Below, piece after piece: positions 2,165 through 30,770 of a stretch of 64,000 nucleotides of DNA. The notes under the pieces are model-generated. The model did not search any database, was not told where the DNA came from, and saw nothing but the letters and a program-made list of their open reading frames with translations. The position numbers and the translations under genes were made by a program. The stretch comes from Ilex aquifolium (taxonomy: Eukaryota > Streptophyta > Magnoliopsida > Aquifoliales > Aquifoliaceae): the NCBI GenBank assembly GCA_951799425.1, contig OX637405.1, positions 24,841,635-24,905,634 of the forward strand, written 5' to 3'. The stretch's first letter is position 1; each line of letters opens with the position of its first letter.

Positions 2165-2210
2165 CCCCCCCCCCCCCCCCCCCCAAAAAAAATAAATAAA
2201 TAAATAAATT
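2165..2210 (+). repeat. poly-C run and (TAAA)n tail of LINE
   Basis: Twenty C (2165-2184) are followed by eight A and then AAAT/TAAA repeats to about 2210. The A-rich repeat is the expected 3' terminus of a plant L1-type LINE; the C run before it is unusual. Confidence 0.7.
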
Positions 2211-3109: not shown

Positions 3110-3415
3110 TAAATTAGGATCGGTCGCGACTACTTATGGCCGATCCTAATTTTTTGGGACGAAACTCATAAAATTGATTTTTAGAGGATAGAAGTGTGAT
3201 TAACCCAATTGTTAAATTAGGATCGGTCGCGAATACTTATGGTCTGTCTAATTTTTTTGGATGAAACTCACAAAATTGATACTTACAGCTTAAAAGTGTT
3301 ATTAACCAATTTGTTAAATTAGGATCGGTCACAACTACTTATGGTCGGTCCTAATTTGTTCTGTTGCAATTTTGGGTTTTGTGTTTCAATAGGACGTTAA
3401 GAATGATTAAGTACC
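3110..3415. repeat. about 102 bp tandem repeat with hairpin core
   Basis: Three units start at about 3110, 3213 and 3315. The first unit contains a good inverted repeat, AATTAGGATCGG...CCGATCCTAATT, around the core GGTCGCGACTACTTATGG; the other units keep the left arm and a decayed right arm. Between cores lies a shared stretch with GAAACTCA and AAAATTGAT. The array resumes right of the inserted LTR element at about 12,899-12,990. Function unknown; the hairpin could fold as DNA or RNA. Confidence 0.75.
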
Positions 3416-5630: not shown

Positions 5631-5645
5631 TTCTTCCCCCTTTAA
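5631..5645 (-). other. polypurine tract of the Tekay element
   Basis: On the minus strand the purine run AAAGGGGGAAGAA lies directly upstream of the 3' LTR start, the usual plus-strand priming site. Confidence 0.85.
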
Positions 5646-5724
5646 AAGAATTTTGTCCCCGAAATTCACACACACACATACATGCAAGCCCATGCATATG
5701 CTGCAGTCATGTAATAGTAAATGA

Positions 5725-8700
5725 CTATAAAAATGTACCTCTATCCTCAAATAAGAAAGGATAATTGGCACGTACGGTGTCCTCGCGCTCCCATGTCGCC
5801 TCTTCCACTCCCCGGTGCTGCCACAACACTTTCACTAGTCTTACGGTCTTGCCTCGCAAAACCTGATCTCGACTATCCATGATACGCACCGGTCCCTCCT
5901 CGAAGGTCCCATCTGCATCAACAGTCAACTCACCCCAATCCACCACATGTGTCGGATCTGGAGTATACTTTCGGAGCATAGAGACATGGAATACCGCATG
6001 AATACCCGATAAATTTGGCGGTAACGCCAACCGATAAGCAACTGTACCCACCCTCTCGAGTATCTCAAAGGGCCCGATATACCTCGGTGACAGCTTTCCT
6101 CGCTTGCCGAATTTGACCACTCCTCTCGTAGGCATCACCTTCAAGAAGATAGGATCTCCCACCTCAAACTCTAGAGGTCGCCGCCGTCTATCGGCGTAGC
6201 TCTTCTGCAGGCTCTGAGCTGTGAGAAGACGCTTCCGTATCAAACTCACCTTCTCCGAGGTGTCTTTTACCAATTCCGGACCCCTAGAAGACCTCTCTCC
6301 TACCTCCGTCAAACAGACCGGAGAACGACATGGCCTCCCGTACAATGCCTTATAGGGTGCCATCTGTATACTTGTCTGATAACTATTGTTATAGGCGAAC
6401 TCCACCAAGGGAAAATGATCTTCCCAGCTACCCTTGAGATCTAGGACGCATGCCCGCAGCATGTCCTCTAAGGTCTGGATAGTCCTCTCAGACTGACCGT
6501 CCGTCTGGGGATGAAAATCAGTGTTCATCATCAGTTGTGTCCCCATGGCTCGTTGAAAACTCTCCCAAAAATGAGCCGTAAACCAGGGATCCCGATCCGA
6601 TACTATAGATACGGGTACTCCATGCAACCGGACAATCTCACGTATATATAACTTGCAGAATTCCTCTAGTGTGAAGGTCATCCGCACCGCCAAAAAGTGT
6701 GCCGACTTAGTAAGCCGGTCCACTACCACCCATACCGTGTCATGTCCCCGCGATGTCCGTGGCAAGTGGGTCACAAAATTCATCGTGACATGCTCCCACT
6801 TCCACTCAGCTACCTCCAAGGGCTGGAGCAAACCTGCTAGTCTCTGGTGTTCAGCCTTAACCTGCTGACACGTGAGACATCGACTGACAAAGTCGCCAAC
6901 TTGCTTCTTCATCTCATTCCAATGATATTGGCGACGAAGATCATGATACATCTCCGTGCCCCCTAGATGAACCGCAAAACGGGAGCAATGAAACTCCCTA
7001 AGGATCTCCTCTCTCAGATCCGCAGACTGGGGAACCACAATCCGTCCCCTGAACCGAAGACTACCATCTGTATGAATGGCCCAGCCTTCATCACCCGTAC
7101 CTAATCGTACTCGGTCCCTGATGGACACTAACTCAGTATCTTGTCCCTCGGACTCAATAACCCTGCTCAGTAGGGAAGGTATAGCCACCAAACTCCCCAA
7201 AGTACCCTGAATATAATCAGCGTAATGTAGCCCGAACTGTCCCACAGTCTCGAGCATCTGCCACTCTCGGGAAGCCACACTAGCCACAACTCCCCGTGAC
7301 TTTCGGCTGAGTGCATCAGCCACCATATTTGCCTTATCGGGATGGTAATGCAAAGTAAAATCGTAGTCCTCGAGGTACTACATCCACCTGCGTTGCCTCA
7401 TGTTGAGGTCCCGCTGTGTAAAAATGTACTTCAGACTCTTGTGGTCCGAAAACACTTCAAACTGCTCGCCATACAGGTAGTGATGCCAAGCCTTCAAGGC
7501 AAAGACAATGGCCTCCAATTCCATATCATGTGTGTGGTAATTCTGCTCGTGGTTCTTTAACTGCCGAGAACCATAAGCCACCACCCTCCCGGACTACATC
7601 AAGACACATCCCAGTCCGTCCTTCGAGGTATCACAATAAACTGTGTACCTCTGTCCCCTTTCCGGGACTATCAAGATAGGAGCTGAAGTAAGCCTTCCCT
7701 TTAACTCCTGGAATGCCTTCTCGCAAGAATCATTCCACTCGAACTTGACCTCTTTTCGAGTCAACCTAGTCATAGATGCAGCCAGCCGAGAGAAATCCTC
7801 AATAAACCGCCGGTAATACCCTGCCAATCCCAAGAAACTGCGTATCTCGAAGACTGACTTCGGTCTCTCCCAATTCATAACTGCCTCGACCTTCTCCGGG
7901 TCCACAGATACACCCGAAGCTGACACTACATGCCCCAAGAATTTCACTTCAGTAAGCCAAAATTCACACTTACTAAATTTGGCATACAACTGATGGTCTC
8001 TCAAGGCCTGGAGAACAATCCTCAAGTGACCCTCATGCTCCTCCTCAGACTTGGAGTAGATCAAAATGTCGTCAACAAAAACCACGACGAAGTGATCAAG
8101 GTAGGGTTGGAACATCCTATGCATGAGATCCATGAATGCTGCCGGGGCGTTTGTCAATCCGAATGGCATCACTGTGAACTCGAAATGCCCATACCGCGTT
8201 CTGAACGCCGTCTTAGGGATATCTTCTTCCCTCACCCTCAACTGATAGTAACCGGTGCGGAGATCTATCTTGGAGTAGACCCGCGCTCCTCTCAGCTGAT
8301 CAAACAAGTCATCAATCCTCGGCAAAGGGTACCTATTCTTGATAGTAACCCTATTCAACTACCGATAATCTATACATAGTCTAAGGGTTTTGTCCTTCTT
8401 CTTTGCAAATAACACCGGAGCGCCCCAATGTGAGGTACTCGGTCTAATGAACCCCCTGTCCAATAATTCCTGCAATTGGACCTTGAGTTCTTGCAACTCA
8501 GCAGACGCCATCCTATGTGGAGTCATAGAAATGGGCGATGTACCGGGATGCAACTCTATAGTGAAGTCCACATCCCTATGTGGAGGTAATCTCGGTAGTT
8601 CATCCGGAAAAACATCCTCATAATCACACACAGCCCGAGGTAGACCCAACTCCTACCTCGCCTCGTCCTCTAGGGTAAGGCTTGCTAGCCAACCCATCAA

Positions 8701-8950
8701 CTGCCCATGCCATCTAGAGTCGTACACGGCTTGGGGTAAAACATCGTGCTTATCTCCCTGAAACATGAAACAAACCCCATCCGGTGTGTAAGCAGTGACC
8801 CGCTTCCGATCACAATCAATGACGACTCGGTGTGCTGCCAACCAATCCATCCCAAGGATTACATCGAACTCCGACATGTCCATGACCCGAAGGTCCACGG
8901 TGAGTAGAACTCCGACATGTCCATAACTCACACCCCCGACATATCTGATC
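5725..8950 (-). pseudogene. Tekay pol region (protease end, RT, RNase H, integrase, chromodomain)
   Basis: Fossil pol region. Recognisable parts on the minus strand, in order: protease C-terminal part with ILGMDWL near 8.9 kb; reverse transcriptase about 8.6-7.8 kb with [12 protein letters not shown] and the catalytic FVDDILIYS; RNase H about 7.7-7.3 kb; integrase about 7.0-6.1 kb with the zinc-binding CLTCQQVK and the core SDRD and HPQTDGQSER; then GPFEILERVG and a chromodomain-like tail ending near 5.73 kb (EEATWERED). The combination is typical of Tekay/Del chromoviruses, whose chromodomain is thought to guide integration to heterochromatin. The copy is broken. Confidence 0.9.
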
Positions 8951-8959
8951 AACCCTCAC

Positions 8960-10346
8960 CCTAGCATTTAGGGGAGAACTCACGTGCAATGGCTCTTCTA
9001 AGGTCTCAACCTCTAAGCCCAAGTCTTTCACACAAGATGCAGCAATAAATGAATGCGATGCACCATAATCAAACAATACTCTAGCCCATAAGCGGGAAAG
9101 TAGAAATGTACCCTGTATCACCGACGGGTCTGCCGACTCAGTCTGTGGTATCATGGCGTAGACACGCCCTTGAGTCCCTGAAGTCCCGGCTTGTGAGCCC
9201 TGACCTCGTCCCCGACCCATGCCTTGGCCCATCTGGCCAGCTTGCGGTGTCCCTGCACGTGAAGTGGTAGGACCTTGTGCAGCACCCTGGTACTGATACT
9301 GACTCCCCCGACCCATGGTAGGGTAGTAAGGAGTATACTGGGTCTGTGGTTGCCCCACCGAAGTCTGGGACTGTGACAATCCGTAGCTTTGGGATCCTTG
9401 CCGCTGAGGACAATCCCGCTTCATGTGACCCCGTTGGCGGCAATGGAAACATGTTTTCTGCCCTGCCTGATATGTAGTCCCCGGGTTTCCCCCGCCTTGG
9501 GAGGATCGACTGTGGCCTTGGCCTTGATGGCTACGGCCTTGTCCTTGTTGCCCTTGCGGAGGAAAAGTCATCTGCCTCTTTCCAGAACTAGAAGAAGAGG
9601 ATTGGCCCTCCTTCTTCTTGTCCTTCACACCCGCCTCCCGGATGTTTCTTGCATCATCTAATTCTCTCTCAATGGCCATGGCTGTCTGGACCATCAAGTC
9701 GAAGTCTTGTAGGAGAAGACTCACAATCTTACCCCGGATGGATAAGTTCAGCCCATCCTCAAACTTTCTGACTTTGGTCGTATCTGTGGCCACGTAGTCA
9801 TCGGCGAAACGTGCTAATTCGGTGAATTTAGCAACGTACTCCATCACCGTCATGGTGCCTTGCCTCAAATCTAGGAATTCCCGGGCCTTTGCATGTCTTG
9901 CTGCGGCCGGAAAGTACTTTCCCATAAAGAGTTCCTTGAACTCAATCCAAGTCATAGCCTCCAAATCCTTGGAGTCTTTCACCCAATCCCACACACCAGG
10001 GATTCCCCCTCCAGCTGAAATGTAGCTAGAGTTATCTTGGTGGCGTCGGAGGTGATCTCCATAGCCCTCAAATATCCACTTGCCGGAACCAATGGTTAGC
10101 TACCATAAGGTCCGCTCCTCCCATGAAGATCGGAGGTTGATGTGCCTTGAACTTCTGGAGATGACTAGAGCCTCCTTGGCCCTCACCTGCACCCGTCTGT
10201 GTGAGTGTGGTAACCACTGTACCAAGAGCCTCTATGAAGGCTTGTTGATCAATAGTAGGTGGTGGTGGGTTGGTCCGCCCACCGCCTCGGCCTCGCCCTC
10301 GCCCTCGGCCGCGTCCTCTTCCTCTTCCTCTTCCTCTATTTTCCAT
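8960..10346 (-). pseudogene. Tekay gag region and start of protease
   Basis: Fossil gag. The front is Arg-Gly rich (GRGRGRGRG). The middle carries the capsid-like FMGKYFPAAAR and the later nucleocapsid has the CCHC knuckle CFHCRQRGHMKRDC around 9.4 kb, followed by a Gln/Gly-rich linker and the aspartic protease start (ASHSFIAASC) near 9.05 kb. It is continuous with the pol region to its left. Confidence 0.88.
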
Positions 10347-10690
10347 CTACACACACATCAGATAGCAATAGACTAACAATTTAGTATCCCAAAGTTAGGG
10401 ATCAAACACAAACGTTGAGAATTCTCTCATTGTCCCCCCTAGTAGAACATATGTCACATACTAGTAGACGTTTAACCCTTGAACTATCCCGTTCATCCCT
10501 TTTTCCGAACCCAAGGTTATGTTTTCTAACCCTAGTGTTCCTCCTTTCCATATACACTCTACCATGTATATATTTCACACAACAAGTAACACATAACATG
10601 TAGCAAGTAGAGCACATAACATGAAATGCGTATGGAATGCAATGGTCTAGACCCATGCCCCTCAAGCCTTAGATAAATCGTATAACCTAG

Positions 10691-10702
10691 GCTCTGATAC
10701 CA
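10691..10702 (-). other. primer-binding site, initiator tRNA-Met
   Basis: The minus strand reads TGGTATCAGAGC three bases inside the 5' LTR. This is the standard plant initiator tRNA-Met primer site. Confidence 0.93.
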
Positions 10703-10705
10703 AGC

Positions 10706-12849
10706 TGTGACACCCCAAAATCCAGGGGTCCGTTGATTACCCATCAACCTGCGGAATACCCATAGATACCGAGTAATTCGATATCTCACCGTTATGCCCC
10801 ATTTTCCGGGGTCCTTAATTTTAACGAAATTCGGGCAGAGTCTCCTTTGTACGGGGACCTCTACCTAAAACACCACCTGTGTAGTATGCATTAACATGAC
10901 CCATCCGAGGCCCAATATAACATAATGACCACACAGGGTCCATTTATAAGTAAAACTTGACCGCATCGGGTCCATTTATCAATACTTATATCAAAACATG
11001 CGAGATTAGTTTAACAATAACCCATATAAGTTCTATTACATTTATTCATGAAAACTTTACAAGTCAAAACCATGTTAATCAAAAGGTTTACAAAATCATG
11101 CACTAAGACCACAGGTCGGCCTCCTTCACCCTTGATGCTCTACATGGGAGCTTACAGAGGTTATTCCCCACCTAGATGTACATGGAATGCTCATATGCAA
11201 TACTCAATTATCTACAACAATTCTAATCATGTTTATGCAACTCAGATATGGAATTTCTTATGACATGTCATGCAACGAGGTGAGACTCATTCATGCACTC
11301 AATCCGAGCCCTTCCCGGCTCCCCAACACACGCAAGTGTCAATGTGTGAATCCGTCATTTATGTTACACATCAATGACATTTTACAAAACTAGGGTCTTT
11401 CTTGGGGTGGGCATTCAGGGACTTACACCAACGGCACCCAACCGACACGGAATTTCAGGACTTCAACCCACGGTTCCGCGTATACTGACACACTTTATGG
11501 CCTTTTACACCAACGGAGTGCGAATCCTATCAACGAGTCTTTCACCCGAGGGATATTCTAGCCCTTCTTGCTAACCCCGACCCAATTTATCTTTCATGCA
11601 ATTATGCGACTCAACGGGGATCTTCGATCCCTTCCTTCCGAGTCCCTTGTCAAATACCTAGAGTGGCATTTGATTAACCATGCACACACACACACACACA
11701 CACTCACACCCATGACTTACACCCATGAATGTGATGTCATGACCATGCCCAATATGCAATTGATGCCATATGAGCAATACAAACCATATATCAACATATT
11801 CCATGAAACTTTATATCACATGCATATAAATTTCATAATTCATCATGCTCAACATATCAACAACATATTCAAACATGTTATTCTAATGGCATCAAACAAC
11901 CATTTAAATCAAGCAAGGCATTTTATCAAACACCTTCAAGGCACAATTTATAAATCACATAGCATGCCTCAAATTTCCCTAAGTTACAAGAACAATCACA
12001 TGTAACTTCAATATATCGAAATCAAGCTAGAAGCTAGCCTAAGTCATTTCTATGCTCACTCTTCCACTTCCATAACCATAGACATATATATATACATACA
12101 TAACCAAAGCATCTCCTAGACACATTCTAGACTAGGAATCAACCCAAGTAGGAAACCCCTACCTCAATAGGAGTGTAGAAAACTCCTATAACACCAAAAC
12201 AACTCAAGAACTCTTGATTTCCCAATCTTCACTTTTAAATCTTCGGTGAAATCTCTTGTTTTTGGTACGTACGCGTAGCCCTCGTCGAGGAAATGAACTT
12301 TGTCTCTTGGATCGACGGATTCCGACCGACGGAACTCTCGGAATCGGAGCGGGAAGGTTGAAGAAAATCACTTTTTTTCTTCCTCTCTTTGGGCGGCTGA
12401 ACAAGGCTGAAGATCAGCTGATATTTTGTGTCAAAAAGTTGATTTAAGAGGGTATTTATAGGCAAAAATGTGTGGTTCACATTGCACCGTATATTTTCGA
12501 CTTTCGGGTCCGTTTTTCGTCCCGAAACGATTCATTATACCTCGGATTAAGTTCAAATTAATTTTATTTGAACTTTAACTTAATTTTAAGGAAATTTTAT
12601 AAAATCCATTATTGGGGACCTTTAAACTGTCATTCGCTACGCAGTCGTCTCGAATGACGTGTAAAAATCTGACTATTTCGGAATTCGACGAAATTTGACA
12701 GGGTGACTAGATTTCGCGATACGAATCCAACGGCGAACTCCGTTTCCTCATCCGAGGTCTAGAGTATGATTATTTAAAATAAGCATTAGGATGGTAAATG
12801 ACCATTTTGCCCTTATTCACAAAAAATTCAAATTTACCCGGGTTTCACA
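10706..12849 (-). repeat. 5' LTR of the Tekay element
   Basis: 2144 bp, starting TGTGACACC on the plus strand and ending GGTTTCACA. It is about 66 bp shorter than its partner at 3421-5630 because of small indels; otherwise the two align throughout. Confidence 0.92.
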
Positions 12850-13089: not shown

Positions 13090-13867
13090 AGTAGAAAGAT
13101 GGTTATCGGTTCAAGGACGTAAGGTTTTTTCGGTTGATTACAACTTTTTTGGGTTGGATTATAACTATATGGGTAGAGTTACAACTTATTTGGGTATGTT
13201 ATGACTTTTGGGGTGGGGTTACAACTATTTTGGGTGGAGGTTACAACGTTTCTAGGTATGTTATAACTTTTGGGGTGGGGTTCTAATTTTTTTGAGTTGG
13301 GTTACAACTTTTGTGGTGGGGTTCCAGCTTTTTTGGTATGAGTTATAATTTTTTTGGATTGAGTTATAACTTTTGGGGTGGGGTTTCAATTTTTCTGGAT
13401 TGGTTTACAACTTTTGGGATGGGGTTACAACTTTTGGAGTAGGGTTACAACTTTTCTGGATTGAGTTACAACTTTTCTTGATTGAGTTATAACTTTTTTG
13501 GATTGAGTTCTAACCTTTTTGGATGAGTTATTACTTTTTTTGGGTGGGGTTAACACTTTTTGGTATAGGGTTACAATTTTTTTGGCTTGGGTTACAATTT
13601 TTTGGGGATTGAGTTCCAACCCTTTGGGGGTGGAGTTATTACTTTTTTGGGTGGGGTTAACACTTTTTTTGGGAGGGGTTGCAACTTTTGAGGGTTATAT
13701 TATAAGCTTTCTAGATTGGGTTACAATATTTAGGGGTGGGTTTATAACTTTTTGGGGGTAAAGTTATAACTTTTGGGGTATATTACAACTTTGAGGATGA
13801 ATTTACCACATTTTGAGGTTATGTTACCACCTCTTTGGTATGAGGTTATTTGATTTTGTAGTCAAAC
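13090..13867. repeat. A-type 21 bp array, diverged
   Basis: About 35 units of roughly 21-23 bp with the pattern GGGTTACAACTTTTTTGG. The unit matches array A of the giant foldback element (GGTTAAGATTACAACTTTTTT, 18.0-19.2 kb) in the same orientation, but with more G and greater divergence. Open stretches on both strands are by-products of the 21 bp period. Confidence 0.8.
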
Positions 13868-13969
13868 CCAACTCCTTCTTTGATTACTACTTCATCAGGT
13901 AACTGGTATCTCAGTGAAGTGATTAATGGTTAGAAAACCACAAATATTAAATCAAGGGGGTCAATTACT

Positions 13970-14019
13970 TTGGCGGTACAGTACTAAAAAATATATTTCG
14001 GTACTGTAGAAGGACGCCC
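13970..14019. repeat. right terminal repeat of a second foldback-family element
   Basis: The stretch CGGTACAGTACT ... TTCGGTACTGTAG ... GACGCCC matches the last 46 bp of the giant element (CGGTACCGTACC ... ATCGGTACTGTAG ... CGAACCC) with near-identical spacing. The element would end at 14,019 with a possible 9 bp target duplication ATGTGATAC at 14,020-14,028. No matching left end is visible in the window, so it lies to the left or is lost. Confidence 0.65.
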
Positions 14020-14238
14020 ATGTGATACATGCTAGTTGACATGTGCTGTTGCAAATCACTTGGGATGTGCATCTTATGATGGTGTAGGCATGGTCAATTT
14101 TATATAACAGGAATGGAGCAAAGACTGAAACAATAATTGTACTTTCCAAAATAACTAGTGGATTTCTCATCTTCGTATCTGTATCAGTTCGCTGCAGCTG
14201 AAAAGTTGCCTGTATTACATTCTTCCAGTGAGGTACAT

Positions 14239-16083: not shown

Positions 16084-17479
16084 TAGTTATGCGCAATTGG
16101 AGCTTGTACTATAATCACGAGTTTAAATATTACGTATTTGGTGAAAGGAATCATATAATAAACACAATCGAATTTTAAAAATAAATATTGATTCCCCATT
16201 CCAGGATCTATTCATGTTTAATACAAACTGAAAAACCTTAGATCTATAATGAATATTAAGGGTTATCTCTTGAAGCGTACTTTTAACAATCTTCAAGTTT
16301 TCTCAAAAACTTTAAATCTTCAAATCTGAGTTTGATTTTTACCCCAAGCCTCGAAATTGTTTGACTTCTATCAGTATCCACTCGAATTGATAAACTTGAA
16401 GGATCTACCTCAACTTTTGATAAACTAGAAGAGAGAGAGAATGAAGGTGGATTTTCTTGTGCTAGCAAGAGAGAGTTGTTATCTCATCTATCCACCTCGT
16501 GTATGAAGGTATTTATAGAGTCTTAGAAGACTCTATTCCTAGTTTAGATCTAGTTGTAATTATTTTATAATTATATATAACCCATTTATTAACCATTAAT
16601 TGTAATAAAGTCCATAATTAACTCTTAATTAGTTTTTTCACCTTAATTAACTCTTAATTGATTTTCACTTTCCTTTATCTTTTAGTTTCCAACCAATTCT
16701 ATTGTGTGACTCTATAAGTTCAAGCATACCCGGTTGTAGGCATTCGATACTAACTACAAGTAACATCTCAACTTTGAACTCTTTCTAATCTAGCTTGAAT
16801 TAAAACTTTTCTAATTCTTCCTTTATGAAGAACAATTAATATATTTATATTAATTTCATTCTTCGGGCTTTTACTAATCATGGTGACACCTAGTAGCATA
16901 TCATGGTCTGCCTCTGGATAACACGAAGTAGGTAAAAAAACTCATTCAGTCCACAATTATCATGTAATTCAATCATTCTATTACATAATGCCCCAATTGA
17001 ATTACTAGGGTATTAAATTACTGTCAAACCCCTTACTCAATCTTATGTGTTTGATCTTAGGACTATGACTCCCAATGATCAATTAAAAACTCTTTTTCTA
17101 ATTGTCATTCAGCATTGACCAAGAACTCCTTGAGTCATATCCTAGAAGATCACATATGACATTCTTCCTTTTTTTACTAAAGGTGATAGATTCCATGTTA
17201 TACATTCATAAGTCTTCATGCATGTTTAACTATGTCCAACAATACATATCCAAATTACATAATTAATATATGAATATGTTTGTATAGTTAAATCATAGAA
17301 GTTCATGCACAAGACAACCATAGTATCTCAAGTATAAGGATCAGTTGCATAACCATAACTTTAGGATTTAACATTGACAAGTATATAACACTCCATATGA
17401 AAAATTATGCATTAGTCAATGATCACGTTTAGTGTACTTGTTCTCTAACAAAGACCCACACACCTCCTTTAGTGTCTTT
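16084..17479. other. noncoding flank, possibly retroelement-derived
   Basis: No gene recognised. The stretch is continuous, across the giant foldback insertion, with 30,515-30,770, so the two formed one locus before the insertion. The style of the sequence recalls noncoding parts of LTR elements, but no LTR ends were found. Confidence 0.4.
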
Positions 17480-17488
17480 ATACTAGTG
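17480..17488. repeat. 9 bp target site duplication, left
   Basis: ATACTAGTG, repeated exactly at 30,506-30,514. Confidence 0.85.
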
Positions 17489-17549
17489 GGACTTGGCTTC
17501 GGTACCGAAAAGATAAAAATCGGTACGATACCGAAAAATTAAAAGAACT
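17489..17549 (+). repeat. left terminal inverted repeat
   Basis: Begins GGACTTGGCTTCGGTACCGA and continues with TCGGTACGATACCG and an A-rich stretch to AAAAGAAC. About 14 of the first 20 bases match the right end, and the inner part matches better. Confidence 0.8.
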
Positions 17550-17799
17550 GAATGCTCGCCACGTGTACACTTCAAAATTCATAAAAACTTATAACCGGTT
17601 TCACCGGTTTCGATATATACTTTAAAAAATTTAAAATGATGATTATTCATTATATTTAAACATGAAATAAAAATATAAGAAAAAATGTACAAGTTAATGA
17701 CTGAACATGAACATAAACTCCTATACACTTTAAAAATAAGTGATAATAGAAATTAAAATAATAATTATTTATTATATTTAAACATGAAATAAAAATATA

Positions 17800-17985
17800 A
17801 CAAAATCAAAATCATCATCATCATTTATTAAAATTAAGATTGAGATTATAGTACAAAAAAAAAAAAACTGAAACGACGAAGAAGAAGATGGAGTTGCAAA
17901 ATTATTTTTGTTCCTATGAATAGATTTTAAATCATCATCATTTATTAAAACTAAGGTTGAGATCATACTAAACTTATATTTAAAA
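17800..17985. repeat. subterminal block D, left, outer copies
   Basis: One full and one partial copy of a repeat containing ATCATCATTTATTAAAA, an A run, GAAGAAGATGGAGTTGCA and AAATTATTTTTGTTCC. Three inverted copies lie at 29.94-30.36 kb. Confidence 0.8.
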
Positions 17986-18039
17986 AAAATAAATACATTT
18001 TTTGGTTATTTGCTTAAATTACACTGGTACCATTAACAG

Positions 18040-19180
18040 TAAAATTGGTTAAGATTATCACTTTTTTGGTTAATAGTACCACTTTTATGGCTGAAATTAC
18101 CACTTTTTTGGATAACATTACCACTGGTTAAAAGTACCTCTGTTTTGGTTAAGATTACCACTTTTTTGGTTAAGAATATAACTTTTTTGGTTAAGATTAC
18201 AACTTTTTTGGTTAAGGGTACCACTTTTTTGTTTAAAATTAACACTGTTTCGATAAGAGTACCACTTTTTTGGTTAACATTACCACTGTTTTGGTTAAGA
18301 GTACCACTTTTTTGGTAAAGATTATAACTTTTTTGGTTAACAATACTACTGTTTTGATTAAGAGTACCACTGTTTTGGTTAAGATTATCACTTGTTTGGT
18401 TAAGATTACAACTTTTTTGGTTAAGAGTACCACTTTTTTGGTTAACAATACCACTGTTTTGATTAAAAGTACCACTTTTTGGGTTAATATTACCATTTGT
18501 TTGGTTAAGAGTACCATTTTTTTGGTTAATTTTACCACTGTTTTGGTTAAGAGTACCACTTTTTTTGTTAACAATACCATTTTTTTTGTTATGATTATAA
18601 CTTTTTTGGTTAAGATTACAACTTTTTTGATTAAAGGTACCACTTTTTTGGTTAATTACCACTGTTTTTTCTAAGAGTACCATTTTTTTTGTTAACATTA
18701 CCACTGTTTTGATTAAGAGTACAACTGTTTTGGTTAAGATTACCACTCTTTTGGTTAAGATTACAACTTTTTTGGTTAACATTATCACTATTTTGGTCAA
18801 GAGTACCACTGTTTGGTTAATATTACCACTGTTTTGGTTAAGAGTACCACTGTTTTGGTTAAGATTACCACTATTTTGGTTAAGATTACCACTCTTTTGG
18901 TTAAGATTACAACTTTTGTGGTTAACATTACCACTGTTTTGATTAAGAGTACCACTGTTTTGGTTAAGATTACCCATTTTTTGGTTAAGATTACAACTTT
19001 TTTGGTTAAGAATAACACTGTTTTGGTTAAGATTACCACTTTTTTGGTTAAGATTACAACTTTTCTGGTTAACATTACCACTGTTTTGGTTAACATTACA
19101 ACTTTTTTGGTTAAGAGTACCACTTTTTTGGTTAACAATACCACTGTTTTGATTAAAAGTACTGTTTTGATTAAAATATA
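18040..19180. repeat. array A, left arm (21 bp unit)
   Basis: About 54 copies of GGTTAAGATTACCACTTTTTT with few indels. Each unit is seven codons long and carries one T tract of about six bases. Inverted partners fill 28.46-29.93 kb. Regular periodicity leaves several frames open on both strands (peptides such as VKITTFL repeated), which are not genes. Confidence 0.9.
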
Positions 19181-19620
19181 ATAATTTTAACTTAACCCAA
19201 AATATAACGTAAAATAGTGGTGAACTTAGATAACCTAATCTAACATCCTAATATTTTTAACTTAAATTTAATGTCAATCAACAACCCCAAATATTATAAA
19301 TTTTTTAGTATATTTTTATTTAGTTTTAAATAAGATAAATAATCATCATTTATTAAAAATAAGATTGAGTGGTAGTCTTTTCATAAAAAAAAAAAAAACT
19401 GGGAAGATGAATCAGAAAGATTAAAATATGGAGTTGCAGAATTATTTTTATCTTATGAGATTATAAAATCATCATAATCATTTATTAAAACTAAGATTGA
19501 GATTATAGTAAATTCATAAAAAAAAAACTCACACGACAAAAAAGAAGGAATAAAGAAGAAGATGGAGTTGCAAAATTAAAACGAAGGTTAAGATTATAGT
19601 AAACTTATATTTAAAAAAAA
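19181..19620. repeat. inner D copies and spacer, left arm
   Basis: Contains ATTTTAACTTAACCCAAAAT, repeated at about 20,055, and two further D copies with GATGGAGTTGCA near 19,429 and 19,562. Confidence 0.7.
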
Positions 19621-19775
19621 TAAATACACTTTTTTTTTTGTTAAGATTATCATTTTTTTGATTAAAATTACAAGTAAAACTTTTTTGGTTAACAGTAACA
19701 TTTTTTTGATTAAGATTATCACTTATTTAGATAAGAGTACCACTTTTTTTATTAAAATTACCACTTTTTTGGAGC
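19621..19775. repeat. short A-type array
   Basis: A few degenerate 21 bp A units with long T tracts, after the inner D copies. Confidence 0.7.
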
Positions 19776-20160
19776 GCTCATAGCGATCCACTTAAGGATC
19801 AAGTTTGCAAACCAATCTGGATTGGATCCCTACTATTCTTGGAGCGCTCAAACCAGCGATCAAGCTTGTCCAATAAATTTAACTTATACCCCTAAATTAT
19901 TACATTTTTTAAATTTTTTCATCATATTTTTCATATTATACCATCAACTATATAATTAGTTTCATATTACCCCAAATGTTTTTACCTATTTTAATTTAAC
20001 ACTGGTCTACCAAAAATTATAACTTTGTTATAATTTATTTAGCGTGAAAAATATAATAATTTTAACTTAACCCAAAATATAAACCCCAAAAAAAGTAATT
20101 TTACCCAAAAAATTGTGGCAGTATGTAACATTGTAATAGCCAAAAAAAATGTGCTAAACT
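19776..20160. repeat. C-like stretch and spacer, left arm
   Basis: GGAGCGCTCA occurs twice (about 19,772 and 19,841) with GATCAAG and GGATTGGATCC motifs, resembling the GATC-rich block C on the right arm but not a clean array. It is followed by AT-rich spacer repeating part of 19.18-19.21 kb. Confidence 0.55.
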
Positions 20161-23100
20161 TTAACATATAATTTTATACAATTAAAATTTAATTTATCAA
20201 ATTAACATTCAATTCATCAAATTAACACCAAATTAACAATAAATTTCATCAAATTAACATTCAATTTTTTCTAATAAGCATTTAATTTACTAAATTAACA
20301 TTCAAATTCAACTAGTTAACATTAAATTAATCAAATAAACTTTCATTTCATCCAATTAATACTCAATTCATCAAATTAACATTCTAATTATCAAATTAAC
20401 TTTCGAATTTATCAAATTGACATTCAATTTCATCAAACTAACATCTAATTTATCAAATCAACACCAATTTAACATGTAATTTCACCCAATTCAAATTAAC
20501 ATTCAATTCGTCAAATTAATATTCAATTCATCAAATTAACAATCAATTTCATCTAATTAACATTCAATTTTTTCTAATAACCATTTAATTCACCAAATTA
20601 ACATTCAAATTCAACTAGTTAACATTAAATTAATCAACTAAACTTTCAATTTCATTCTATTAATACTCAAATTAACATTCAAATTATGAAATTAACATTC
20701 CAATTTATCAAATTGACATTCAATTTCATCAAATAAACAGCAAATTAACATTCAATTCATCAAATTAACACCAAATTGACAATAAATTTAATTTCATTAA
20801 CATTCAATAATTTCAAATAACCATTTAATTCGTTAAATTAACATTCAAATTTAACTAGTTAATATTAAAAAAATCAAATAAACTTTCGATTTCATTCAAT
20901 TAGCACTCAATTCATCAAATTAACATTCAGATTTGTCAAATTGACATTAAATTATATCAAATTAACAAGTAATTTCATCCAATTAAAATTTAATTTATCA
21001 AATTAAAATTAAATTAACATTCAATTCATCAAATTAACACTAAATTGACACTCAATTTCATGAAATTAACATTCAATTTTTTCCAATAAGCATTTAATTC
21101 ACTAAATTAACATTCAAATTCAACTAGTTAACATTAAATTAATCAAATAAACTTTCAATTTCATTCTATTAACACTCAATTCATCAAATTGACATTCAAA
21201 TTATCAAATTAACATTCCAATTTAGCAAATTGACATTCAATTTCATCAAATAAATACCAAAATTAATATGTAATTTCATCCAATTAAAATTTAATTTATC
21301 AAATTAACACCAAATTAACATTCAATTAATCAAATTAACACCAAATTAACAATCAATTTCATTTAATTAACATTCAATTTTTTCTAATAAGCTTTTTAAT
21401 TCACCAAATTATCATTCAAACTCAATTAGTTAACATTAAATTAATGAAATAAACTTTGAATTTCATTCAATTAGCACTCAATTCATCAAATTAACATTAA
21501 GATTTGTCAAATTGACATTAAATTTCATCAAATTAACATTCAATTTCATCCAATTAAAATGTAATTTATCAAATAAAAACTAAATTAACAGTCAATTCAT
21601 CAAATTAACACTAAATTAACACTCAATTTCATCTATTTAACATTCAATTTTTTTTAATAAGCATTTAATTCACTAAATTAACATTCAAATTCAACTAGTT
21701 AACATTAAATTAATCAAATAAACTTTCAATTTCATTCTATTAACACTCAATTCATCAAATTAACTTTGAAATTATCAAATTAACATTCCAATTTACATGT
21801 AATTTTATTCAATTAAAATTTAATTTATCAAATTAACACCAAATTAACATTCAATTTATCAAATTAACACCAAATTGACAATAAATATCATTTCTTTAAC
21901 ATTCTATATTTTCTAATAAGCATTTAATTCGTTAAATTAACATTCAAATTTAACTAGTTAACATTAAATTAATCAAATAAAGTTTCAATTTCATTCCATT
22001 AGCACTCAATTCATCAAATTAACATTCAGATTTGTCAAATTGACATTAGATTTCATCAAATTAACATATAATTTCACCCAATTAAAATTTAATTCATCAA
22101 CTTAAAACTAAATTAACATTCAATTCATCAAATTAACACTAAATTAATACTCAATTTCATCTAATTAACATTCAATTTTTTATAATAAGCATTTAATTCG
22201 CTGAATTAACATTCAAATTCAACTAGTTAACATTAAATTAATCAAATAAACTTTGAATTTCATTCAATTACCACTCAATTCATTAAATTAGCATTCAGAT
22301 TTATCAAATCGACATTAAATTTCATCAAATTAACATTCAATTTCATCCAATTAAAATTTAATTTATCAAATTAAAACTAAATTAATATTCAATTACTCAA
22401 ATTAACACTAAATTAACACTGAATTTCCTCTAATTAACATCCAATTTTTTCTAATAAACATTTAATTCACTGAATTAACATTCAAATTCAACTAGTTAAC
22501 ATTAAATTAATCAAATAAACTTTCAATTTCATACTATGAACACTTAATTCATCAAATTAACATTAAATTTATCAAATTAACATTCCAATTAACATCTAAT
22601 TTCATTCAATTAAAATTTAATTTATCAAATTAACACCAAATTAACATTCAATTCATCAAATTAACATCAAATTGACAATAAATTTCATTTCATTAACATT
22701 CAATATTTTATAATAAGCATTTAATTCGTTAAATTAAAATTCAAATTTAACTAGTTAACCTTAAATTAATCAAATAATCTTTCAATTTCATTCAATTAGC
22801 ACTCAATTCATCAAATTAACATTCAGATTTGTCAAATTGACATTAAATTTCATCAAATTAACATTCAATTTATGAAATGGACTTTCAATTTCATCAAAGT
22901 AACATGTAATTTCATCAAAATCGACTTTCAATTTCATTAAATTTACATTCGATTTATCAAATTGACATTCAATTTCATCAAATTAACATGTAATTTCATC
23001 AAATCGACTTTCAATTTCATTAAATTAACATTCGATTTATCAAATTGACATTCAATTTCATCAAATTAACATTCAATTTATCAAATTGACATTCAATTTC

Positions 23101-23530
23101 ATCAAATTAAAATGTAATTTCATCAAATCGACTTTCAATTTCATTAAATTAACATTCGATTTATCAAATTGACATTCAATTTAATCAAATGAAAATTCAA
23201 TTTATCCAATGAAAATTCAATTTCATCAAATTAACATGTAATTTCATGAAATCGACTTTCAATTTCATGAAATTAACATTCGATTTATCAAATTGACATT
23301 CAATTTCATCAAATTAACATTCAATTTATGAAATTGACATTCAATTTCATCAAATTAACATGTAATTTCATCAAATCGACTTTCAATTTCATTAAAATAA
23401 CATTCGATTTATCAAATTGACATTCAATTTCATCAAATTAACATTCAATTTGTTAAATTGACATTCAATTTCATCAAATTAACATGTAATTTCATCAAAT
23501 CGACTTTCAATTTCATTAAATTAACATTCG
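20161..23530. repeat. array B, left arm
   Basis: Units of 20-21 bp of the form ATCAAATTAACATTCAATTTC. From 20.16 to about 22.86 kb they are grouped into a higher-order unit of about 240-300 bp marked by TTTTCTAATAAGCATTTAAT and AACTAGTTAACATTAAATTA, about ten times. From about 22.87 kb to the axis the grouping changes to about 124 bp, marked by AAATCGACTTTCAATTTC. Confidence 0.9.
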
Positions 23531-23640
23531 ATTTGATGAAATTGAATGTTAATTTGATGAAATTACATGTTAATTTAATGAAATTGAAAGTCGATTTGAT
23601 GAAATTACATGTTAATTTGATGAAATTGAATGTCAATTTA
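23454..23640. repeat. symmetry axis of the foldback
   Basis: The plus strand from 23,454 and the minus strand from 23,640 read the same for about 73 bases before diverging, leaving a loop of about 40 bp centred near 23,547. This is where the B units change orientation. Confidence 0.85.
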
Positions 23641-26600
23641 AGAAATTGAATGTTAATTTGATGAAATTGAATGTCAATTCGATAAATCGAATGTTAATTT
23701 AATGAAATTGAAAGTCGATTTGATGAAATTACATGTTAATTTGATGAAATTGAATGTCAATTTGATAAATTGAATGTTAATTTGATGAAATTGAATGTCA
23801 ATTTGATAAATCGAATGTTAATTTAATGAAATTGAAAGTCAATTTGATGAAATTACATGTTAATTTGATGAAATTGAATGTCAATTTAATAAATTGAATG
23901 TTAATTTGATGAAATTGAATGTCAATTTGATAAATCGAATGTTAATTTAATGAAATTGAAAGTCGATTTGATGAAATTACATGTTAATTTGATGAAATTG
24001 ATTATTCATTTGATAAATTGAATGTTAATTCGATGAAATTGAATGTGATTTTGATAAACCGAATGTTAATTTAATGAAATTGAAAGTCGATTTGATGAAA
24101 TTACATGTTAATTTGATGAAATTGAATGTCAATTTAACAAATTGAATGTTAATTTGATGAAATTTAATGTCAATTTTATAAATCGAATGTTAATTTAATG
24201 AAATTGAAAGTCGATTTGATGAAATTACATGTTAATTTGATGAAATTGAATGTCAATTTAATAAATTGAATGTTAATTTGATGAAATTGAATGTCAATTT
24301 GATAAATCGAATGTTAATATAATGAAATTGAAAGTCGATTTGATGAAATTACATGTTAATTTGATGAAATTGATTATTCATTTGATAAATTGAATGTTAA
24401 TTCGATGAAATTGAATGTGATTTTGATAAACCGAATGTTAATTTAATGAAATTGAAAGTCGATTTGATGAAATTACATGTTAATTTGATGAAATTGAATG
24501 TCAATTTAATAAATTGAATGTTAATTTGATGAAATTGAATGTCAATTTGATAAATCGAATGTTAATTTAATGAAATTGAAAGTCGATTTGATGAAATTAC
24601 ATGTTAATTTGATGAAATTGAATGTTAATTTGATGAAATTGAATGTCAATTTAAGAAATTGAATGTTAATTTGATGAAATTGAATGTCAATTCGATAAAT
24701 CGAATGTTAATTTAAAGAAATTGAAAGTGGATTTGATGAAATTACATGTTAATTTGATGAAATTGAATGTCAATTTGATAAATTGAATGTTAATTTGATG
24801 AAATTTAATGTCAATTTGGTAAATCGAATGTTAATTTAATGAAATTGAAAGTCGATTTGATGAAATTACATGTTAATTTGATGAAATTGAATGTCAATTT
24901 AACAAATTGAATGTTAATTTGATGAAATTGAATGTCAATTTTATAAATCGAATGTTAATTTAATGAAATTGAAAGTCGATTTTATGAAATTACATGTTAA
25001 TTTGATGAAATTGAATGTCAATTTAATAAATTGAATGTTAATTTGATGAAATTGAATGTCAATTTGATAAATCGAATGTTAATTTAATTAAATTGAAAGT
25101 CGATTTGATGAAATTACATGTTAATTTGATGAAATTGATTATTCATTTGATAAATTGAATGTTAATTCGATGAAATTGAATGTGATTTTGATAAACCGAA
25201 TGTTAATTTAATGAAATTGAAAGTCGATTTGATGAAATTACATGTTAATTTGATGAAATTGAATGTCCATTTAATAAATTGAATGTTAATTTGATGAAAT
25301 TGAATGTCAATTTGATAAATCGAATGTTAATTTAATGAAATTGAAAGTCGATTTGATGAAATTACATGTTAATTTGATGAAATTGAATGTTAATTTGATG
25401 AAATTGAATGTCAATTTAAGAAATTGAATGTTAATTTGATGAAATTGAATGTCAATTCGATAAATCGAATGTTAATTTAAAGAAATTGAAAGTGGATTTG
25501 ATGAAATTACATGTTAATTTGATGAAATTGAATGTCAATTTGATAAATTGAATGTTAATTTGATGAAATTTAATGTCAATTTGGTAAATCGAATGTTAAT
25601 TTAATGAAATTGAAAGTCGATTTGATGAAATTACATGTTAATTTGATGAAATTGAATGTCAATTTAACAAATTGAATGTTAATTTGATGAAATTGAATGT
25701 CAATTTTATAAATCGAATGTTAATTTAATGAAATTGAAAGTCGATTTTATGAAATTACATGTTAATTTGATGAAATTGAATGTCAATTTAATAAATTGAA
25801 TGTTAATTTGATGAAATTGAATGTCAATTTGATAAATCGAATGTTAATTTAATTAAATTGAAAGTCGATTTGATGAAATTACATGTTAATTTGATGAAAT
25901 TGATTATTCATTTGATAAATTGAATGTTAATTCGATGAAATTGAATGTGATTTTGATAAACCGAATGTTAATTTAATGAAATTGAAAGTCGATTTGATGA
26001 AATTACATGTTAATTTGATGAAATTGAATGTCAATTTAATAAATTGAATGTTAATTTGATGAAATTGAATGTCAATTTGATAAGTCGAATGTTAATTTAA
26101 TGAAATTGAAAGTCGATTTGATGAAATTACATGTTAATTTGATGAAATTGAATGTTAATTTGATGAAATTGAATGTCAATTTAAGAAATTGAATGTTAAT
26201 TTGATGAAATTGAATGTCAATTCGATAAATCGAATGTTAATTTAATGAAATTGAAAGTCGATTTGATGAAATTACATGTTAATTTGATGAAATTGAATGT
26301 TAATTTGATAAATTGAATGTTAATTTGATAAAATTGAATGTCAATTGGATAAATCGAATGTTAATTTAATGAAATTGAAAATCGATTTGATGAAATTACA
26401 TGTTAATTTGATGAAATTGAATGTCCATTTAATAAATTGAATGTTAATTTGATGAAATTGAATGTCAATTCGATAAATTGAATATTAATTTAATGAAAAT
26501 TGAAAGTCGATTTGATGAAATTACATGTTAATTTGATGAAATTGAATGTCAATTTGATAAATTGAATGTTAATTTGATGAAATTGAATGTCAATTTGATA

Positions 26601-28107
26601 AATTGAATGTTAATTTAATGAAATTGAAAGTCGATTTGATGAAATTACATGTTAATTTGATGAAATTGAATGTCAATTTAACAAATTGAATGTTAATTTG
26701 ATGAATTTGAATGTCAATTTTATAAATCGATTGTTAATTTAATGAAATTTAAAGTCGATTTGAGGAAATTGCATGTTAATTTGATGAAATTGATTGTTAA
26801 TTTGATAAAATTGAATTTCAATTTGATAAATCGATTGTTAATTTAATGAAATTGAAAGTCAATTTGATAAATCGAATGTTAATTTAATGAAATTGAAAGT
26901 CGATTTGATGAAATTACATGTTAATTTGATGAAATTGAATGTTAATTTGATGAAATTGAATGTCAATTTAATCAATGAAATGTTAATTTGATGAAATTGA
27001 ATGTCAATTTGATAAATCGAATGTAAATTTAATGAACTTGAAAGTCGATTTGATGAAATTACATGTTACTTTGATGAAATTGAAAGTCCATTTCATAAAT
27101 TGAATGTTAATTTGATGAAATTGAATGTCAATTTGGTAAATCGAATGTTAATTTAATGAAATTGAAAGTCGATTTGATGAAATTACATGTTAATTTGATG
27201 AAATTGAATGTCAATTTGATAAATTTGATTGTTAATTTGATAATTTGTATGTTAATTTGATGAAATTGAGTGTTAATTGAATGAAATTGAAAGTCTATTT
27301 GATTAATTTAATGTTAACTAGTTGAATTTGAATGTTAATTTGGTGAATTAAATGCTTATCAGAAAAAATTAAATGTTAATTAGATGAAATTAATTGTTAA
27401 TTTGGTGTTAATTTGTTAAATTAAATTTTAATTGGTTGAAATTACATGTTAATTTTTTGTTGGTTTGATAAATTATATGTTAATTTAATGAAATTGAATG
27501 TCAATTTGATAAATCTGAATGTCAATTTGATAATTTCAATGATAATTTGACGAATTGAGTATTAATTGAATGAAATTGAAAGTTTATTTGATTAATTTAA
27601 TGTTAAGTAGTTGAATTTGAATGTTAATTTAGTTAATTAAATGCTTATTAGAAAAAACTGAATGTTAATTAGATGATAATTAATTATTAATTTGGTGTTG
27701 ATTTGATATATTAAATTTTAATTGGTTAAAATTATATGTTAATTTGGAGTTGATTTGATGAAATTACATGTTAATTTGATGAAACTGAATGTCAATTTGA
27801 TAAATATGAATGTTAATTTGATAGTTTAAATGTTAATTTGATGAATTGTGTGTTAATTGAATGAAATTTAAAGCTTATTTGATTAATTTAATGTTAACTA
27901 GTTAATTTTGAATGTTAATTTAGTGAATTAAATGCTTATTAGAAAAAATTGAATGTTAATTAGATGAAATTAAGTGTTATTTTTGTGTTAATTTGACGAA
28001 TTGAGTATTAATTTGGTTTTAATTTGATAAATTAAATTTTATTTGGATGAAATTACATGTTAATTTGGTGTTGATTTGATGAAATTACATGTTAATTTGA
28101 TTAAATT
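23531..28107. repeat. array B, right arm, with 124 bp and 765 bp higher-order repeats
   Basis: The inverted B unit (TTGATGAAATTGAATGTTAA) is organised in 124 bp blocks of six units: ACATGTTAATTTGATGAAAT recurs at about 23,605, 23,728, 23,852, 23,976, 24,100, 24,224 and 24,348. Several blocks form a 765 bp repeat, marked by ATTATTCATTTGATAAATTG at 24,373, 25,138 and 25,903, with near-identical copies. From about 27.24 kb the array turns into three inverted copies of the 270-300 bp block seen in the left arm. Confidence 0.9.
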
Positions 28108-28455
28108 GAATTGCTCCCAATCTTGATCGATCCAGTCTTAATTGCTAGTCTTGATCGCAAGAGTGGACTTGATCCCAATCTTGATCGATCCACTCTAGAT
28201 TGCTAGTCTTGATTGCAAGAGTGCACTTGATCCCAATCTTGATCGATCCAGTCTAGATTGCTAGTCTTGATCGCAAGAGTGCACTTGATCCCAATCTTGA
28301 TCGCTACTTGATCGCTACTCTTGATCGCAAACTGCACTTTATACCACTCTTGATCGCCACTATTGATCGCTACTCGATCCCGATCGCTACTCAGCTCTTG
28401 ATCGATCGAATCGTGATTCGATCGCAATTCTTGATCGCTAAAAGCAATTGATCGA
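28108..28455. repeat. block C: 58 bp GATC-rich tandem repeat
   Basis: Units with CCCAATCTTGATCGATCC and CTAGTCTTGATCGCAAGAGT begin at about 28,115, 28,174, 28,232 and 28,290 (58-59 bp spacing), then degenerate into TTGATCGCTACT repeats. It lies between arrays B and A on the right arm only in this clean form. Confidence 0.85.
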
Positions 28456-29930
28456 TCAAAAAAAGTGGTAATATTCACCAAAAAAGTGGTAATATTAACC
28501 AAAAAAGTAGTAATTTCAACTTAAACAGTGGTAATCTTAACCAAAAAAGTGGTACTCTTAACCAAAACAGTGGTAATGTTAACCATTAAACTGGTAATAT
28601 TATCCAAATCAGTGGTACTCTTAACCAAAATAGTGGTAATGTTAACCAAAAAAGTGGTACTATTAACCAAAACGGTGGTAATGTTAGCAAAAAAAGTGGT
28701 AATCTTAATCATTTGAATTGTAATTTTAACCAAACAAGTGGTACTCTTAACCAAAAAAGTGTAACCTTAACCAAAAAAAGTTGTAATCTTAACCAAAGAA
28801 ATGGTAATTTTAACCAAAAAAGTAGTAATTTCAACTTAAACAGTGGTAATGTTAACAAAAAAAGTGGTACTCTTAACCAAAACAGTGGTAATGTTAACCA
28901 TTAAACTGGTAATATTATCCAAATCAGTGGTACTCTTAACCAAAATAGTGGTAATGTTAACCAAAAAAGTGGTACTATTAACCAAAACAGTGGTAATGTT
29001 AGTAAAAAAAGTGGTAATCTTAATCATTTGAATTGTAATTTTAACCAAACAAGTGGTACTCTTAACCAAAAAAGTGTAACCTTAACCAAAAAAAGTTGTA
29101 ATCTTAACCAAAGAAATGGTAATGTTAACAAAAAAAGTAGTAATGTCAACTTAAACAGTGGTAATGTTAACCAAAAAAGTGGTACTCTTAACCAAAACAG
29201 TGGTAATATTAACCATTAAACTGGTAATATTATCCAAATCAGTGGTACTCTTAACCAAAATAGTGGTAATGTTAACAAAAAAAGTGGTACTATTAACCAA
29301 AACAATGGTAATTTTAGCAAAAAAAAAGTGGTAATCTTGACAAAAAAAATGGTAATATTTAACCAAAATAGTAGTACTCTTAATCAAAATAGTGGTAATG
29401 TTAACAAAAAAGTGGTATTCTTAACCAAAAAAGTTGTAATCTTAAACAAAAAGTGAAATTTTAACCAAAAAAGTGGTAATCTTAACTTAAACAGTGATAA
29501 TGTTAACCAAAAAAGTGGTACTGTTAACTAAAATAGTGGTAATGTTAACCAAAAAAGTGGTACTCTAAATCAAAACAGTGGTAATATTAACCAAAAAAGT
29601 GGTACTCTTAACAAAAAAGTTGTAATCTTAACATAAAAAGTGGTAATGTTAACCCAAAAAGTGTTAATCTTAACTTAAACAGTGGTAATGTTAACCATAA
29701 AAGTGGTATTCTTAACCAAAATAGTGGTAATGTTAACAAAAAAAATGGTATCTTAATCAAAATAGTGGTAATATTAACCAAAAATGTGATACTCTTAACC
29801 AAAAAAGTTGTAATATTAACCAAAAAAATGGTACTCTTAACCAAAACAGTAGTAATGTTACCAAAAAAGGTCGTAATAATGTTAACAAAAAAAGTGGTAC
29901 CCTGGTAATTTTAACCAACAAAAGTAGTAC
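28456..29930. repeat. array A, right arm, with 315 bp higher-order repeat
   Basis: Inverted A unit (AACCAAAAAAGTGGTAATCTT) repeated about 70 times. A 315 bp block (15 units) starting near 28,521 repeats at 28,836 and 29,151 with few differences, so the right arm has had its own recent amplification. Confidence 0.9.
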
Positions 29931-29934
29931 TCTT

Positions 29935-30365
29935 ACTATAATCTCAACATTAGTTTTAATAAATGATGATGATTTTATAATCTCTTGAATGGTTCATGCG
30001 GATAAAAATAATTCTGCAACTCCATCTTCTTCTTTCTCCTTCTTCTTCGTCTGAGTTTTTTTTTTTTTTTTAATAAATTTACTATAATATTAATCTTTGT
30101 TTTAATAAATGATGATTTTATAATCTCTTGAACGATTTATAGGATAAAAACAATTATGCAACGATATTTCTCCTTCTTCTTCCCTATCTGAATTTTTTTT
30201 TTTTTTTGATATTTTTTTTTTTTTTTTTATGAAAAGACTATGGCTTAATCTTAGTTTTAATAAATGACGATACTTTTATAATCTGTTGAAGCATTTACAG
30301 GATAAAAACAATTCTGCAACTCCATCTTCTTCTTCGGCTGTGTTTTTTTTTTTTTTTTATGAAAG
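29935..30365. repeat. subterminal block D, right (three inverted copies)
   Basis: Three copies of about 140-150 bp with TTTTAATAAATGATGAT, TGCAACTCCATCTTCTTCTT and a T run, inverted relative to the left D blocks. Confidence 0.85.
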
Positions 30366-30445
30366 CGTAAGGCTCAGTGGAGTGGGTAGCCGGTAAAAAG
30401 TGTTAGATTTGATCAACGGTCAAAATTCTTCGTTATATATCAACC

Positions 30446-30505
30446 GTTCATTTTATTTTTTCGGTACCGTACCGAAAAGTGAATATCGGTACTGTAGTCG
30501 AACCC
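30446..30505 (-). repeat. right terminal inverted repeat
   Basis: On the minus strand it starts GGGTTCGACTACAGTACCGA and contains TCGGTACGGTACCG and AAAATGAAC, matching the left end. Confidence 0.8.
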
Positions 30506-30514
30506 ATACTAGTG
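30506..30514. repeat. 9 bp target site duplication, right
   Basis: ATACTAGTG, identical to 17,480-17,488. Confidence 0.85.
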
Positions 30515-30770
30515 ACTTGGACGAGTCACCTCATATCAATTATGAGTAAACATAGTGTATGTTAGTCTATTCGAATTACATAGTGCTCACATAATAATCC
30601 TATGAGTAGGAACATTTAAGAGTTAAGTACTAAGAAGTATAGGTCTCCTTTTCTCAACTCTTTGAGAAACCATCTTCTTAACTTATGCTCTATGGACTAT
30701 ATCATGTATATTAAAATGAAAAGTCGAAACAAGATAAATAAACTTGCCCTTTTATTTAATTAAGTAATGA

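Follow-up and report, generated by a model that had tools for sequence, protein, structure and literature searches.

How does a 13-kb stretch of DNA that consists almost wholly of tandem repeats come to be bordered on both sides by the same nine bases? The question is raised by a locus of the holly Ilex aquifolium, located in a stretch of 64,000 nucleotides (assembly GCA_951799425.1, contig OX637405.1, forward-strand positions 24,841,635–24,905,634), the whole of which was analysed and is hereafter called the window; all coordinates below count from its first letter. An earlier note, made from the letters alone, suggested that the locus is a giant non-autonomous foldback element mobilised by the transposase of a Mutator-like element (MULE). 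In the present study, we consider it likely that the locus goes back to one event, in which a giant non-autonomous DNA transposon of the foldback type was inserted; it would have been moved in trans by a MULE-type transposase. The two parts of that suggestion differ in strength. The assignment to foldback-type non-autonomous transposons is well supported by a target-site duplication (TSD), terminal inverted repeats (TIRs), the mirrored order of repeat blocks, and an apparent relative elsewhere in the window, and mobilisation by a MULE transposase is plausible but only indirectly indicated, by the 9-bp length of the TSD and the GG..CCC ends.

Results

Ends of the element

The element spans 17489–30505, that is, 13,017 bp between the two copies of a perfect 9-bp TSD, ATACTAGTG. 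A 9-mer search found exactly two copies of ATACTAGTG in the window, at 17480–17488 and 30506–30514, where the earlier note had placed them, and no copy of its reverse complement. It is also the only 9-mer common to the two boundary regions (starts 17461–17500 versus 30486–30530). The probability of such a duplication arising by chance was estimated at approximately 1e-5 for one fixed boundary pair and 5e-4 with 49 placements. However, when 5000 random pairs of windows as large as those searched were compared, 76 had some 9-mer in common, and the weight of the TSD thus rests on its exact abutment to the ends of both TIRs.

The left TIR (17489–17549, + strand), which begins with GGACTTGG, and the right TIR (30444–30505, − strand), which ends with GAACCC on the + strand, were delimited by alignment to each other. 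They have the length of about 60 bp previously proposed and are identical at 43 of 63 aligned columns (68%). Their core (17520–17548 versus 30446–30475) matched at 27 of 30 columns with a score of 43, compared with a maximum of 30 among 3000 random pairs. The 9-bp TSD falls within the range of 8–11 bp reported for MULEs (PMC6446971), and 9 bp is also the length of the target duplication of the Drosophila foldback element FB.

Mirrored arms and central palindrome

Rows reported by Tandem Repeats Finder (TRF) account for 87% of the element, a share that falls to 83% when the subterminal rows (29933–30339) are excluded, in agreement with the proposal that more than three quarters of it is tandem repeat. 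The order of blocks inward from each end is TIR, subterminal module (approximately 150 bp), A, C, B-outer, B-inner, and axis. The mirror-image order of three blocks (D, A, and B) described earlier was thus confirmed and proved to be richer, with a subterminal module, block C, and an outer and inner division of B. TRF reported no A- or B-type units at 14.1–17.4 kb or to the right of 30.5 kb; arrays that halt at the ends of the element, together with the TSD and the ends themselves, fit one insertion event.

The left subterminal module (17817–17993, +) showed inverted matches to the right arm at 30039–30116 (79%), 29803–30024 (71%, extending into the A array), and 30216–30350 (75%), and the right module (29933–30339, −) was resolved by TRF into tandem copies of approximately 143–158 bp. 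The A arrays, delimited by TRF and a profile scan, are built from a 21-bp unit present in 53 copies in the left arm (18045–19156, +) and in 69 copies, with a 315-bp higher-order lag, in the right arm (28459–29899, −). The left arm carries an extra subterminal-plus-A module (19333–19771). This comprises a second copy of the subterminal module between the long and short A arrays (19333–19578, +), which is 77% identical to the left subterminal region in direct alignment (196 columns) and 72% identical to the right one in inverted alignment (275 columns), and a short second A array detected by TRF (19634–19771, +). Block C of the right arm (28109–28458, +; TRF) consists of 58-bp GATC-rich repeats with 24 GATC in 350 bp. 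At its mirror position in the left arm, a weak GATC-rich stretch without assigned strand (19773–19865) was chosen by eye. It contains four GATC in 93 bp, a number that no other 93-bp window outside both C regions reaches in 10-bp steps, and its alignment to block C scored 27 in inverted and 24 in direct orientation, which was equalled by 5 of 1000 shuffles and leaves the orientation ambiguous.

The left B-outer array (20161–22916, −), delimited by TRF, lag, and segment analysis, shows a spacing of approximately 10.3 bp, units of 21, 31, and 41 bp, and lags of 269 and 797 bp. It is followed by the left B-inner array (22917–23543, −), which has a 124-bp higher-order unit and forms the left arm of the central palindrome. 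The axis of symmetry, placed near 23.55 kb in the earlier note, corresponds to the 7-nt spacer of the longest palindrome at 23544–23550. On its other side lie the right B-inner array (23551–27350, +), with higher-order units of 124, 248, and 765 bp and with its first 627 bp forming the right palindrome arm, and the right B-outer array (27351–28111, +), delimited by segment matching.

The left A array served to build the A profile and the right B array the B profile; for each, the opposite arm therefore provided an independent test. The B profile gave 142 hits on the + strand in bins 23500–28499 and none in the left arm; on the − strand, it gave 72 hits at 20000–23499, one in bin 23500, and none farther right within the element. 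The A profile gave 57 hits on the + strand at 18000–19999 and 65 on the − strand at 28000–29999, with one stray − hit in bin 20000. In a control region (30.6–64 kb), one hit of the A profile and none of the B profile were found. The A and B units thus change strand at the axis.

When the left B arm was cut into segments of approximately 200 bp, the best inverted match lay in 27172–28115 for all 14 B-outer segments and in 23758–26424 for all three B-inner segments. In the reverse test, 19 of 23 right B segments matched left B-inner best and four matched left B-outer best; the latter are the four segments of right B-outer, three of which matched within 20180–20585 and one within 21214–21375. The three outermost left B segments (20161–20686) follow the order of their partners from 28063 down to 27253, and among the four outermost right B segments one steps back and one matches farther in. 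The left B-outer segment 21089–21284 matched 27172–27356, which in the reverse test matched left B-inner. As 27172–27356 is claimed by both types, the border between the inner and outer B arrays in the right arm is approximate (27.17–27.35 kb).

The palindrome arms at the axis are 627 bp long and 94% complementary. Counted ungapped from the axis, identity was 92%–98% per 100 bp over 600 bp and then dropped to 22%–48%; alternative axes in the periodic arrays also pair well, such as one with 149 nt between arms of 617 nt. The predicted RNA fold across the axis (601 nt) had an energy of −394.5 kcal/mol, compared with a mean of −124.7 kcal/mol for 20 shuffles. The element therefore has two inverted arms of tandem repeats, as FB does, and the inverted diagonal expected of a foldback element is present in the segment matches, the palindrome, and the switch of strand.

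The lengths of the arrays in the left and right arms are 1.1 and 1.4 kb for A, approximately 2.8 and 0.8 kb for B-outer, and approximately 0.6 and 3.8 kb for B-inner. In right B-inner, with lags of 124, 248, and 765 bp, identity at lag 765 was 94%, whereas the A arrays of the two arms are 76%–86% identical. These values and the arm-specific lags indicate that at least B-inner grew late. The arms thus keep a common block order, yet have been amplified separately, B-inner most recently.

An apparent older relative in the window

Several dispersed copies are a further mark of FB elements; what was seen within the 64-kb window is parts of one likely older relative. TRF detected a B array at 2203–3089 (+; eight profile hits on the + strand and none on the −) and an A-like array at 13125–13860 (+; four profile hits on the + strand and none on the −). 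The A-like unit equals the A unit at 16 of 21 positions, and 3 of 20,000 shuffled units do as well. A right-type TIR at 13956–14019 (−) aligned to the right TIR of the main element at 44 of 65 columns, and its local score of 40 exceeded that of every random pair (maximum 30). It is followed at 14020–14028 by a candidate TSD, ATGTGATAC, of which no partner copy was found in the left part of the window. Repeats of 102 bp occupy 3091–3357, 3′ of the older B array, and a further stretch was seen by eye at approximately 12.9–13.0 kb.

The arrays of the older relative are separated by a gypsy-type long terminal repeat (LTR) retrotransposon (3421–12849, −), identified from its LTR ends and from Pfam matches to gag, protease, reverse transcriptase, and integrase; its LTRs are approximately 2.1–2.2 kb long. 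The 5-mers flanking this element, AAATT and AAATC, were placed by eye and differ by one base. On the other side of the older B array, a long interspersed nuclear element (LINE)-type stretch (756–2203; Pfam zf-RVT and RNase H) has an A-rich tail that directly abuts the array, suggesting that it was probably inserted into the older relative.

Periodicity and composition of the arrays

AATT positions were most coherent at 10.34–10.36 bp in the B arrays and at 10.18 bp in the older B array. In a simple wedge model of our own choice, curvature exceeded all 20 dinucleotide shuffles in six of six arrays and all 20 phase-broken versions in four of four arrays, and two of two flank controls did not differ from their shuffles. 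However, permuted 21-mers repeated 20 times bent as much in 22 of 200 cases for A and in 42 of 200 for B. Curvature was therefore rejected as a sign of selection and attributed to AT-rich units near two helical turns. CpG is nearly lacking in the A-type arrays, with one in left A, two in right A, and two in the A-like array against 23, 27, and 18 expected, respectively, and is in excess in the right B array (23551–28109), with 64 against 29 expected.

Coding content and searches

The 13-kb body had been described as holding no gene. Pfam detected no transposase in 2 of the 31 stop-free frames of at least 60 amino acids inside the element, the other 29 frames not having been scanned, and the description holds to that extent. 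The left A array contains a 404-amino-acid stop-free frame of 7-residue repeats (18033–19247, −), which stays open because 21 is a multiple of 3. For this frame, Pfam lists five families, including RNase_Y_N at 33.6 bits against a cut-off of 32, with no single stretch passing alone. A coding role of the A array was rejected, as the Pfam matches were judged to reflect low complexity and no frame in the right A array is longer than approximately 104 amino acids.

Rfam at its gathering threshold returned no family in the window. Among viral contigs, the TIR core matched one locus, which lacks tandem repeats, and no locus matched the right TIR or the units of A and B. A scan of bacterial and archaeal sequences yielded five loci, which were taken as chance.

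Other elements in the window

In the right part of the window, copia-type fragments with gag, zinc-knuckle, and pre-integrase matches lie at 51336–52887 (−), and direct repeats with common 16-mers between 48000–49000 and 54500–55500 are possibly an LTR pair. A second LINE-type stretch, with Pfam matches to reverse transcriptase and zf-RVT, occupies 56582–58567.

Discussion

Close parallels are found among animal foldback elements. Drosophila FB likewise has end sequences, spacers, mirrored tandem-repeat blocks in unequal numbers per side, and a 9-bp duplication (PMC7642927). However, FB is described as blocks of five 27–31-bp repeats around a middle region, and ten FB4 copies measured 627–2266 bp (PMC2955051), whereas the Ilex element is 13 kb long, has the repeat types A, B, and C, and has only 7 nt between its palindrome arms. 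As a middle domain of the FB type is thus not present between the arms, the element is not filed as a member of the FB family. Tm1, a Mutator/Foldback element of Meloidogyne, resembles the Ilex element in its composite TIRs, variable short tandem repeats, and mostly 9-bp TSDs, but has a single repeat motif of 13–15 bp and a transposase encoded by some members (PMC3169594). Tetris of Drosophila virilis is a non-autonomous foldback element with TIRs composed of a flanking domain, tandem repeats, and an inner domain, and its repeats are also found as longer arrays; it differs in its repeats of approximately 220 bp, its TIRs of at most 1,735 bp, and its middle domain (PMC4079207).

In plants, FARE of Arabidopsis is comparable as a foldback element with long palindromic repeats that, by a citing description, is now placed among MULEs (PMC4486113). 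MULEs with extra tandem TIR copies are reported from tomato and Arabidopsis and have a much simpler build; there, whole TIRs are added and the main tomato families measure approximately 1.3–1.4 kb (PMC3310237), whereas the Ilex element has minisatellite arms of some 6 kb. The literature search, which did not extend to the original descriptions of FARE, SoFT, and Tnr8, yielded no plant element of such size and make-up, and absence from print is not claimed. The earlier judgement that the element lies far outside the usual form thus holds for its size and number of repeat types and not for its plan, which FB already shows; the novelty lies in the size and in the presence of several arrays, each amplified on its own. 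We regard the element as built like Drosophila FB and probably moving like a MULE, and file it as neither an FB member nor a proven MULE.

The following scenario may explain the locus. A MULE-type transposase made elsewhere would recognise the ends of approximately 60 bp and move the element; mobilisation in trans is inferred from the lack of a transposase among the Pfam-scanned open reading frames (ORFs). Slippage or unequal exchange would expand and contract the blocks separately in each arm, keeping their order and altering their lengths. A transcript of the central region, if one is made, would fold into a nearly perfect hairpin and might serve as a source of small interfering RNA (siRNA).

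Several observations weigh against this interpretation. The TIRs are only 68% identical, and the exact end of the element is blurred by ACTTGG, which occurs directly 3′ of the right TSD and again 2 bp inward of the left end; we treat this as a coincidence. Within the arms, the inner and outer B arrays are divided only approximately, owing to the match of 21089–21284, and the left C block is weak, chosen by eye, and suggestive at most. The left end of the older relative falls outside the window, and its A-like array points the other way from the main element's right arm, suggesting either that the older copy was rearranged or that the link between the two is looser. Furthermore, Pfam found no transposase, and hence none of the mudrA type that autonomous MULEs carry, in 20 ORFs of the window (19 of the 24 of at least 120 amino acids and one further frame inside the element, without intron models), and fly foldbacks are called P element-related (PMC7642927), so that structure alone does not decide the superfamily.

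The alternative that survives best is that a smaller foldback element, or one similar to a miniature inverted-repeat transposable element, was inserted and that its arrays then grew in place to 13 kb. We do not favour it, but regard it as a serious contender, because each arm has higher-order lags of its own (269 and 797 bp in left B-outer, 124 and 765 bp in right B-inner) and the identity at lag 765 exceeds that between the A arms. However, the older relative already has A-like and B arrays, which suggests that arrays of some size probably predate this insertion.

The single insertion of a MULE-mobilised foldback, which we continue to prefer, is also to be weighed against mobilisation by another superfamily. 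Merlin, hAT, and P-type elements make target duplications of similar length. The lack of a transposase in the scanned ORFs, the affinity of fly foldbacks to P elements, and Galileo, a foldback-like member of the P superfamily, are compatible with such an origin. We nevertheless consider it unlikely, as an exact 9-bp TSD with GG..CCC ends fits the barley MULE Hvu_Abermu, for which GGG..CCC ends are reported along with TSDs of 9 bp in 267 of 278 copies (PMC9168764).

By analogy with Arabidopsis VANDAL elements, in which VANC proteins target short motifs in fast-changing noncoding tandem repeats (PMC5735166, PMC10398659), the arrays might have been retained as binding platforms for an anti-silencing protein. 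This seems about equally doubtful, since the element contains no copy of the VANC21 motif YAGTATTAY (VANC6 motifs not included) and VANDAL TIRs are described as degenerate (PMC10398659), unlike the mirrored arms found here.

Palindromes and long arrays that resemble one another are difficult to assemble, and the array lengths or the palindromic centre could partly be artefacts of assembly. That is quite improbable, because left and right B-inner segments differ by 2%–11% and the TIRs, A, and B-outer differ more between the arms. Finally, that the arrays arose in place between 9-mers and TIRs that are there by chance, as the common 9-mers of 76 random window pairs might suggest, is highly improbable given the abutment of the 9-mer to both TIR ends, a TIR core scoring above every one of the 3000 random pairs, and a like end of older date at 13956–14019.

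The observation at this Ilex locus is real and informative and, on the preferred reading, represents a known kind of element in an unusual form. If the element moves as a 13-kb unit, it would be a foldback scaled up to a mobile minisatellite, and transposon ends could lead directly to satellite-like arrays at dispersed sites. As a more speculative and rather unlikely extension, it might belong to a family of giant foldbacks that are made nearly wholly of minisatellite arms in mirror arrangement and that transpose at a length of approximately 13 kb. The order of repeat types would be retained while amplification proceeds separately in each arm, and the arrays, rather than a gene or a unique core, would be both the cargo and the object of selection (by way of transposase, anti-silencing, or chromatin proteins); such a family could seed new satellite DNA. 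The arms would also constitute an unusually long potential hairpin source for siRNA. Because the window holds two apparent members of the family, how such arrays originate and turn over can be tested within one genome.

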